Source of the DNA: Candidatus Woesebacteria bacterium
Lineage (GTDB): Bacteria > Patescibacteriota > Microgenomatia > UBA8517
Direction of reading: 5' to 3'
NCBI GenBank assembly: GCA_020061305.1
Contig: JAGUYM010000015.1
Span: 1-41,958, forward strand
DNA: 41,958 nucleotides
The number at the start of each line of letters is the position of its first letter. Position 1 is the first letter of the stretch. Shown here in pieces: positions 8,563 through 11,939 of the stretch. Position numbers and translations under genes: made by a program. The notes beneath the pieces were generated by a model. It saw nothing but the letters and a program-made list of their open reading frames with translations. It made no database searches and was not told the DNA's origin.

Positions 8563-8634
8563 GGGTCTGTCGTTCAACGGTTAGGACACAAATCTTATAA
8601 ATTTGTAACAATGGTTCGACTCCATTCAGACCCA
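8563..8634 (+). tRNA. tRNA-Ile with UAU anticodon (decodes AUA)
   Basis: Cloverleaf: GGGTCTG/CAGACCC acceptor, GTTC/GGAC D-stem, CAAAT-CTTATAA-ATTTG anticodon arm, AATGG-TTCGACT-CCATT T-arm, discriminator A. CCA not encoded. Confidence 0.88.
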
Positions 8635-9380: not shown

Positions 9381-9547
9381 TTTTAAAAAGGGATAAATAT
9401 AGAGAAAAGTTAACCCAGATGTATAAACATTTCAGGGGTGTGAAACATGAGAATGCACTTTCTGAACTTAGGTATTCTGAAATAAAAGTTTATGAAGACC
9501 TCTTAGCCTCAGTTGTTAAAGAAATTGGGGAATTAGAGCTCAATTAG
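9350..9547 (+). CDS. Hypothetical small coiled-coil protein
   Basis: 65-aa ORF overlapping the end of the upstream gene. Confidence 0.5.
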   Translation: MDKNRKLQELILKRDKYREKLTQMYKHFRGVKHENALSELRYSEIKVYEDLLASVVKEIGELELN

Positions 9548-10393
9548 GGCTTGTTTGTTTCCTGACTCTTTTACCCCCGCAAGTTTTAGGTATTTTTCTG
9601 TAGTTGACAATCTTTTATGGCCGGCGATTTGAGACAATAACACTAAATCAACACCATTTTTAATATTTTCCACGATAAAAGTAGTTCTTAAGTCATTAAC
9701 TGAATATTTAGGAAGTTCAGCTTTTTGTATAAATCTGTCAACCGAAGCCCTAATATTTCTAACAGCCAAAGGTTTTCCTGTCTTACTTACAAAAAGATAA
9801 TCAGAAGAAATATCTGGTCTATCCATTAGATATTTGTCTAATGCATCTTTGGCGGGTTTATTTATGGGAATTGTTCTTTCCGGTTGTGTGGAGTAGCCCT
9901 CAATTTTAATAAATTCATTTCCTACATTATCTTTTTTAAGGTTGGCAACCTCAGAAATTCTTAAACCCGTTTGAAGTATTAACTCAATCATGGCATAAAT
10001 TCTGCTATCACTTCTGGCGGCGTCTCTTAAAGCTCTGTATTCAAGAGGAGTCAAAAACTTAGGTTGGACATTCTCAATTTTGGGATGTTCAACAGACTTT
10101 GAAGGATCCTCTTTTACAAATCTGTTGGCTAATGCCCATTTAAAAAAAGTTTTGACTGCATTTAGTTTTCTAGAAACTGTCTTTAAGGCAAATTTCTGGG
10201 AAATCAACATGTCTTTAAAGTTATTCAAATATTCTATGGTGACTTTATCGATTGTTGCTAGGTTATTTTTGGTAGCGAATTCCAAAAGCTGATCGAGATC
10301 AGCCCTGTAGGCAAGAATTGTAGATCTTGATTTACCATTTTTTTCCAAACTTACTACAAATTGTGATATTAGATCTTTTACTGAATCATTCAT
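9533..10393 (-). CDS. Tyrosine recombinase XerC/XerD-like
   Basis: SAM-like N-terminal domain; 'LILQTGLRISEVANLKKDNV', 'DLRTTFIVENIKNGVDLVLLSQIAGHKRLSTTEKYLKL'. Confidence 0.9.
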   Translation of the reverse strand: MNDSVKDLISQFVVSLEKNGKSRSTILAYRADLDQLLEFATKNNLATIDKVTIEYLNNFKDMLISQKFALKTVSRKLNAVKTFFKWALANRFVKEDPSKSVEHPKIENVQPKFLTPLEYRALRDAARSDSRIYAMIELILQTGLRISEVANLKKDNVGNEFIKIEGYSTQPERTIPINKPAKDALDKYLMDRPDISSDYLFVSKTGKPLAVRNIRASVDRFIQKAELPKYSVNDLRTTFIVENIKNGVDLVLLSQIAGHKRLSTTEKYLKLAGVKESGNKQALIEL

Positions 10394-10830: not shown

Positions 10831-11083
10831 TTGCGGGGCTGGGAGTTGCGCCCAGCCTGCGAGATTATGCTTTTTATGTAATCTCCAATTACTTAGAGTG
10901 TCGGACTATATCTTCACCCCGGTGTTCGTCGGGGGCTCGGCGTGTAGTCTCTAGGGGGTTATTTCAACTTCCCTCGGGATTGACCAAAATGGCGTCCCCC
11001 GATATAGCCAAGTTTCACTTTACAATTACTCGTAAAGTGGCCCAATTTTATTAAGCCTCGCGTGCACTGTACACTACCCCGCA
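10831..11083 (-). tRNA. Intron-interrupted tRNA with CAU anticodon (initiator-like tRNA-fMet), with aberrant D- and T-loops
   Basis: Exon 1 11083-11054 TGCGGGG TA GTGT-ACAGT-GCAC G CGAGG CT; exon 2 10869-10831 CATAA TCTCG CAGG CTGGG-CGCAACT-CCCAG CCCCGCA A. Acceptor 7/7, D-stem 4/4 (one G-U), anticodon stem 5/5 (one G-U), T-stem 5/5; anticodon loop CTCATAA after splicing. Confidence 0.8.
10870..11053 (-). ncRNA. Group I self-splicing intron (184 nt) inserted between U33 and C34 of the tRNA anticodon loop
   Basis: P1 exon GGCU with IGS GGCC (U-G at the 5' splice site); P2 CACTTTAC/GTAAAGTG; P3 CTTGGC/GCCGAG; P4 TCGGG/CCCGA; P6 GGG/CCC; P7 R element AGACTACACG with S element AAGATATAGTCC (GACTA/TAGTC); P8 CCCCG/CGGGG; P9 CTCTAA-GTAA-TTGGAG; terminal omega-G at 10870. 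Confidence 0.88.
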
Positions 11084-11133: not shown

Positions 11134-11169
11134 TAAATAGTTATGTGATATATGATACAATGGTTATAT

Positions 11170-11850
11170 ATGGCACATAGTATTGATATAATTTCAAAAA
11201 TAAAAAAAATTAGAAAGAAGGGGGTTAGTTTAAGAGAAATATCTAGAAAACTAAACATACCTGAGAGCACTGTTAGATATTGGTGTAAAGGTTTAAAACT
11301 TTCTAAAACTGCTAAAGCCAAACTCGAAAAAATTACAAGAGATCCTTATTATGGTCGGCGCAAAGAAAATATTGAAAAGCAGATCAAAGCTAAAAATGAC
11401 AAAATTACTCGATTGTTAAATGAAGGATTTGACGAAATTTCTGACCTAACTAAAAATGAACTGTTTCTAGTTGGAACTGCCTTATATTGGGCAGAGGGTT
11501 TTAAAAAAGATACCCAAGTTGGTTTTGCAAATTCTGATTACAAAATGATTAACATCTTTATTAAATGGCTTAAAGTGTGTTGTGGAATCAATAAAACAGA
11601 TTTGTTACCAAGAGTCACAGTTAATATATCTCACATGCATAGAATAAATGAAATACAAAATTACTGGTCGGTAAAAACAGGAATAGCACAAAATCAATTT
11701 AGAAAACCATTTTATCAAAATGTAAAATGGCAAAAATTATACAAAAACGAGAATGAGTATTTCGGTGTTTTAAGGATTAAAGTTAGGAGGAGTATTGATT
11801 TGTTAAGGAAAATTCACGGGTGGATAGCAGGATTGTCGTCAAAATGTTAA
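11170..11850 (+). CDS. HTH plus LAGLIDADG-like homing endonuclease-type protein
   Basis: HTH 'KGVSLREISRKLNIPESTVRYWCKGLKLS' followed by 'ELFLVGTALYWAEGFKKDTQVGFANSDYKMINIFIKWL' resembling a LAGLIDADG core. Start at 11152 or 11170. Confidence 0.6.
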   Translation: MAHSIDIISKIKKIRKKGVSLREISRKLNIPESTVRYWCKGLKLSKTAKAKLEKITRDPYYGRRKENIEKQIKAKNDKITRLLNEGFDEISDLTKNELFLVGTALYWAEGFKKDTQVGFANSDYKMINIFIKWLKVCCGINKTDLLPRVTVNISHMHRINEIQNYWSVKTGIAQNQFRKPFYQNVKWQKLYKNENEYFGVLRIKVRRSIDLLRKIHGWIAGLSSKC

Positions 11851-11862
11851 AATAAGTTTCGC

Positions 11863-11936
11863 GCCAGCGTAGCTCAGTGGTTAGTAGCGGTCGTTTCATA
11901 AGCGACAGGTCATTGGTTCAAATCCAATCGCTGGCA
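11863..11936 (+). tRNA. tRNA-Met (CAU), elongator-type
   Basis: GCCAGCG/CGCTGGC acceptor, GTCGT-TTCATAA-GCGAC anticodon arm, ATTGG-TTCAAAT-CCAAT T-arm, discriminator A. Confidence 0.87.
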
Positions 11937-11939
11937 CAG

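Follow-up and report, generated by a model that had tools for sequence, protein, structure and literature searches.

A group I intron in a tRNA(CAU) gene, very probably the sole initiator tRNA gene, of a Woesebacteria genome, and a neighbouring candidate homing endonuclease gene

The stretch of DNA discussed here (the window) comprises 41,958 nucleotides of contig JAGUYM010000015.1, from a Candidatus Woesebacteria bacterium, a tiny uncultured member of the Microgenomates group of Patescibacteria. On its minus strand a tRNA(CAU) gene, referred to below as tRNA-fMet(CAU), is interrupted between U33 and C34 by a group I intron, and a gene for a LAGLIDADG-like protein lies next to it. The 5' exon (30 nt, 11083-11054) ends in ...GGCU, the last base being U33. 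The intron (184 nt) follows at 11053-10870, and the 3' exon (39 nt, 10869-10831) starts with CAUAA, which contains the anticodon C34A35U36. After A73 the genome has CC; the full CCA is not encoded. When the exons are joined, ARAGORN calls them tRNA-Met(CAT) of 69 nt, in agreement with the tRNA(CAU) identity given in a preliminary description of this DNA, and their folding beats all but one of 200 shuffles. The unspliced gene at 11083-10831 is not called by ARAGORN with the intron option off or on, so that standard tRNA callers do miss it, as that description expected. Since the intron option gives no call, we placed the splice sites by BLAST against intact alleles.

To judge from its Rfam match and core structure, the insert is a group I intron. 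Rfam cmscan finds RF00028 on the minus strand at 11063-10882, over the full length of the model (1-253), with 73.7 bits and E 5.1e-17, the cut-off being 50 bits. The preliminary description had staked its claim of a minus-strand group I intron on such a match, and the match proves strong. The window genome (659 kb) has no other such match. The internal guide sequence UUGGGCC (11039-11045) forms P1 with the 5' exon GGCU, and U33 is paired with G at the 5' splice site; the intron ends in G at 10870. P2 (11017-11038) is a stem with a GUAA tetraloop (fold z = -6.3), and many siblings have a GNRA-type loop. P3 consists of CUUGGC (11012-11007) and GCCGAG (10941-10936) and encloses P4-P6. P7 is made of GACUA (10949-10945) and UAGUC (10908-10904); it holds the guanosine-binding G-C pair, and P8 lies between its strands. 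P9 (10883-10898), seen in both the Rfam match and the fold, is a stem with a GUAA loop. No open reading frame (ORF) was found inside the intron. A resemblance to subgroup IC3 is noted; Rfam has one general model for group I introns.

We searched 57 genomes of the class with a 72-nt tRNA reference (the exons of genome G013, with one 3' base set to the family consensus). The insertion is proven, because the same tRNA is uninterrupted in 37 relatives (the G004 copy matches the query at 99% identity) and split at the identical base in 17. Every one of these 17 is cut between U33 and C34, by introns of 183-266 nt, in line with the splice sites at 11053 and 10870; G060 is a further, eighteenth, split genome. 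When GTDB species genomes were searched by pattern (3' tRNA half preceded by a purine), 76 split loci were found, nearly all in Microgenomates. Their hosts include Levybacteria, Woesebacteria, Gottesmanbacteria, Roizmanbacteria, Shapirobacteria and others, and those members of the window's own family that bear a name, such as G013, go under Woesebacteria. The sequence, the site, the core structure, its covariation and the intact alleles are direct observations.

Several structural elements listed in the preliminary description hold up in this larger set. The U33.G pair at the splice site is present in the window and in 75 of 75 parsed introns, and in all of them GGCU faces a guide with ...TGGGC (the family type being UGGGCC, opposite the exon GGCU in P1). 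The last base is G in the window and at 75 of the 76 GTDB loci. P3, P4 and P7 are 94-100% paired, with compensatory two-sided changes at several pairs (71-73 distinct introns, 73 for P3). One word of that description needs softening: the length of 184 nt is right, and it lies near the short end of the fMet family, but it is not uniquely minimal in a family of ~178-266 nt that also has one truncated copy of 121 nt.

In this bacterial class, group I introns in tRNAs are common. Of 191 related genomes, 108 have one or more RF00028 matches. Such introns were seen in tRNA genes for Asp, Thr, Asn and Leu and in what appear to be rRNA genes (L018, L020, L023, L025, L027, L036, L039 and others). Split fMet genes of the Microgenomates type also occur at L150, L163 and L124, in entries named Omnitrophota, Chlamydiae and Parcubacteria; these are probably mis-binned contigs.

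Which tRNA is interrupted? The window genome has two CAU tRNAs, the split one and an intact tRNA-Met(CAU) with elongator features (11863-11937, plus strand). AUA is served by its own tRNA-Ile(UAU), at 8563. With the fMet family model, no intact initiator was found elsewhere in the window genome, the best matches being other isotypes and the split halves. An ordinary fMet gene elsewhere would have spoken against the preliminary description; no other initiator-like CAU tRNA was found in the genome. Given the separate elongator Met, the tRNA-Ile(UAU) and this absence, it is very probable that the genome has no initiator (fMet) tRNA gene other than the split one, which has the CAU anticodon and is the only candidate beside the elongator in this draft assembly. 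Two features of initiators are missing from it. Instead of the C1xA72 mismatch of bacterial initiators the window has U1-A72, while C1xA72 is present in other branches of the same tRNA gene family (in relatives and in other families of the class). In place of the three G-C pairs of the anticodon stem there are A29-U41, G30-C40 and G31.U39, nearly clade-wide; the literature searched yielded no report of initiator tRNAs in which these G-C pairs are altered. These departures, together with an anticodon common to both, could be taken to mean that the gene encodes a lysidine-modified tRNA-Ile2. Against this, the genome reads AUA with tRNA-Ile(UAU), the elongator Met is a separate gene, and the same gene carries C1xA72 in relatives from other families of the class; we consider a tRNA-Ile2 extremely improbable. 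In G001, of the same genus, fMet was not detected. A contig of that assembly starts at the neighbouring tRNA-Ile (L227 = G001:C14:1-1500), so we treat the absence as an assembly gap.

The elbow of this tRNA is unusual. Positions 18 and 55 are G:U (44), A:G (40) or G:C (12) with no exception among 96 distinct fMet exon sets, in all of which G19:C56 is invariant. According to a review (PMC7912444), G18 and U55 are conserved and pseudouridine 55 is universally conserved. The window fMet has A18:G55, and because it has no U55, pseudouridine 55 is impossible there. Both states are found inside one family, and the distribution suggests, without a tree, that there was more than one switch. The fMet family is a rare natural experiment at this part of the tRNA elbow. 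Decay of the D- and T-loops was considered for the window tRNA and rejected, A18:G55 being a coupled change common to many relatives. Changed elbows are also seen in other tRNAs of the window genome, namely Val(CAC) with A18:G55, Glu(CTC) with A19:U56 and Thr(CGT) with A54/U58 (L010:57-129, L013:57-131, L014:56-129 (-)).

Upstream of the split gene and divergent from it lies an ORF of 232 aa (11152-11850, plus strand; likely start at 11170, judged by homologs). It begins 68 bp from the 5' end of the tRNA, and 12 bp separate its end from the elongator tRNA. The product has an N-terminal helix-turn-helix (HTH) and a LAGLIDADG-like domain (LFLVGTALYWAEGFKK), and is a candidate free-standing homing endonuclease. 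Its profile matches I-DmoI (E 8e-4), and the AlphaFold model has a predicted local distance difference test (pLDDT) score of 91. In the motif LYWAEG the residue before the last G is acidic in 40 of 40 homologs, and the G is invariant. This adjacent gene, the tRNA elbow and the class-wide frequency of such introns go beyond the preliminary description.

Homologs of the ORF, ~20-55% identical, are present within 1.2 kb of 44 of the 76 GTDB split loci. In a tblastn tally at split loci the ORF is upstream within 1.5 kb in 39 cases, all of them divergent and mostly 69-146 bp away; at 4 loci it is directly downstream, on the tRNA strand. There is exactly one copy in each of the window genome, G006 and G017, and the ORF is absent from five sampled genomes with intact fMet. 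It adjoins 11 of 17 split versus 1 of 37 intact relatives (Fisher p = 1.4e-6, phylogeny ignored). Could this proximity be nothing but shared inheritance within the same clades? The statistic is not tree-based and would allow it. Within the window's own family, however, the ORF is beside 6 of 8 split versus 1 of 24 intact loci, and the pattern recurs in a second family and beside Thr, Asn and Asp tRNA introns, which makes shared inheritance improbable.

Three further observations concern this neighbourhood. At L074 (genome G033) an intact fMet has a divergent nuclease-like ORF at the same position, possibly an intron loss or a stage before invasion. At L016, L029 and L040, group I introns of tRNA-Thr, -Asn and -Asp have an ORF homolog just upstream, on the same strand. 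In the window, a tyrosine recombinase of the phage integrase family is encoded near the tRNA pair (9533-10393, minus strand; Pfam E 2.5e-27).

The splicing chemistry that we propose is that of group I introns in general. In the transcript the intron would fold into the P3-P9 core, with P2 and P9 presenting their GUAA loops. A guanosine bound at P7 would then cut after U33, held in P1 by the U.G pair. At the terminal G the intron would be released and GGCU ligated to CAUAA, which would restore a normal anticodon loop, with the expected exon junction CGAGGCU-CAUAAUCUCG. If the gene is the only initiator, protein synthesis would depend on the self-excision of a ribozyme from the sole initiator tRNA.

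The tie of the ORF to split loci suggests that the system is mobile by collaborative homing. The LAGLIDADG-like protein would be a nuclease in the service of ORF-less tRNA introns: it would cut intronless fMet alleles, and repair would then bring in the intron along with the nuclease gene. The association is observed; that the neighbouring gene encodes the endonuclease for this process is, in our view, somewhat better than an even bet. Intact and split pairs with an adjacent nuclease gene offer a way of testing collaborative homing on a chromosome. The HTH domain brings to mind a different role for the protein, as a regulator or as a splicing helper. WhiA is a domesticated LAGLIDADG protein that acts as a regulator. 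A LAGLIDADG maturase is known from Thermotoga (PMC3984707). Against both roles, the ORF is patchy, tied to the intron and absent from the sampled intact genomes, and the catalytic-type acidic residue is kept in 40 of 40 homologs. Splicing does not require the ORF, since many family introns lack one in their neighbourhood, which argues against a maturase. A regulator or maturase is a plausible but unlikely alternative to the homing endonuclease.

As a whole, a split fMet gene with a group I intron and a neighbouring homing gene is the best explanation of the locus, and we hold it with considerable confidence. Several points weigh against it. Splicing of the window intron is inferred from its sequence. 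Foldseek's best nuclease match to the ORF product, I-DmoI, is weak (E 0.28, probability 0.95), and a Pfam search of the product gave the HTH only, with no LAGLIDADG. At 32 of the 76 split loci there is no ORF in the examined stretch (some contigs end there), and the intron-ORF association statistic ignores phylogeny. Finally, the assembly is a draft of 17 contigs with 97% completeness, and the Rfam search listed only 26 tRNAs, which leaves a little room for a second initiator in a gap. The last point would also allow the split copy to be dead and the true initiator to be missing from the assembly, the expected tRNAs not all being listed. A dead copy is hard to reconcile with exons that are undamaged and match the intact alleles of relatives, with intact splice elements, or with coupled 18-55 changes whose retention would need selection. 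In addition at least 17 relatives share the split, the single-contig genomes G013, G014 and G065 among them. We regard a dead copy as very improbable.

One sibling intron deserves separate mention. In a Blackburnbacteria metagenome-assembled genome (MAG; G056, JACPEJ010000004.1, locus L155 = G056/L091:197-486 (-)) the split-fMet intron has an altered guanosine site. Its P7 is GACACCAUACG / GAGAUGGUGC, where the guanosine-site pair is C-G and not G-C, and a second P7 pair has gone from U-A to C-G, a compensated change. The last base of the intron is A, while the relative G055 has the same end sequence with G. As RF00028 the intron scores 44.9 bits, below the cut-off of 50. No intact initiator is among the best fMet-model matches in G056. 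All group I introns keep the guanosine-site pair, and C-G abolishes guanosine recognition (PMC5192423, citing Been and Perrotta 1991). The G056 intron resembles an engineered group I intron of 1991: Been and Perrotta are said to have made a double mutant at the guanosine site that preferred adenosine and was rescued when the terminal G was replaced by A. A flipped P7 guanosine site was not found a second time in 385 Microgenomatia genomes, and a draw of 389 genomes from across the phylum, G056 not among them, contained no case. The G056 intron may be a natural nucleophile switch that splices its initiator tRNA with adenosine (ATP), a tentative suggestion to which we give a little less than an even chance. 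Since the case is a single MAG, decay and errors in the sequence have to be considered, though neither fits well with changes that are coordinated. If true, this is possibly the first group I intron to use adenosine in nature.

In the literature, which was covered in part, we found no earlier account of fMet introns at U33|C34 as a family or of the divergent nuclease gene that goes with them. The same holds for the covariation of positions 18 and 55 and for an adenosine-type intron in nature. Already known are group I introns in tRNAs of the candidate phyla radiation (CPR) and in cyanobacterial fMet, as well as single-domain LAGLIDADG proteins in CPR rRNA introns. The Azoarcus pre-tRNA-Ile intron (IC3) docks the GNRA loops L2 and L9. 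It resembles the window intron as an ORF-less bacterial tRNA intron of ~200 nt, and differs in its tRNA and its host. CPR tRNA group I introns are mentioned by Lui et al. 2021 (PMC8172020), and the tRNAscan-SE 2.0 paper (PMC8450103) explains missing fMet and Ile2 genes by introns. In the portions of the two papers available to us the same phenomenon takes up one sentence, and these portions contain no CPR fMet site, no comparison of intact and split alleles and no adjacent nuclease.

The tRNA-fMet group I intron of cyanobacteria (Biniszkiewicz 1994; Bonocora & Shub 2001, as cited in PMC8450103 and PMC3984707) is similar in having an endonuclease specific for the anticodon region of tRNA-fMet. 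There, the nuclease ORF is inside the intron; here, an ORF-less intron stands beside a separate, divergent candidate gene. I-ShaI and the CPR rRNA introns (PMC11270868) come from the same radiation and likewise combine group I introns with a single-motif LAGLIDADG protein. Their host gene is rRNA, the nuclease is encoded in the insert, and tRNA is not mentioned in the main text. Collaborative homing has been described from two phages (Zeng 2009, as presented in the review PMC3984707). These pairs share with our locus the arrangement of a free-standing nuclease gene and an ORF-less intron at one site. They involve phage genes, whereas here the host is a chromosomal bacterial tRNA gene and the candidate nuclease is known from its sequence.
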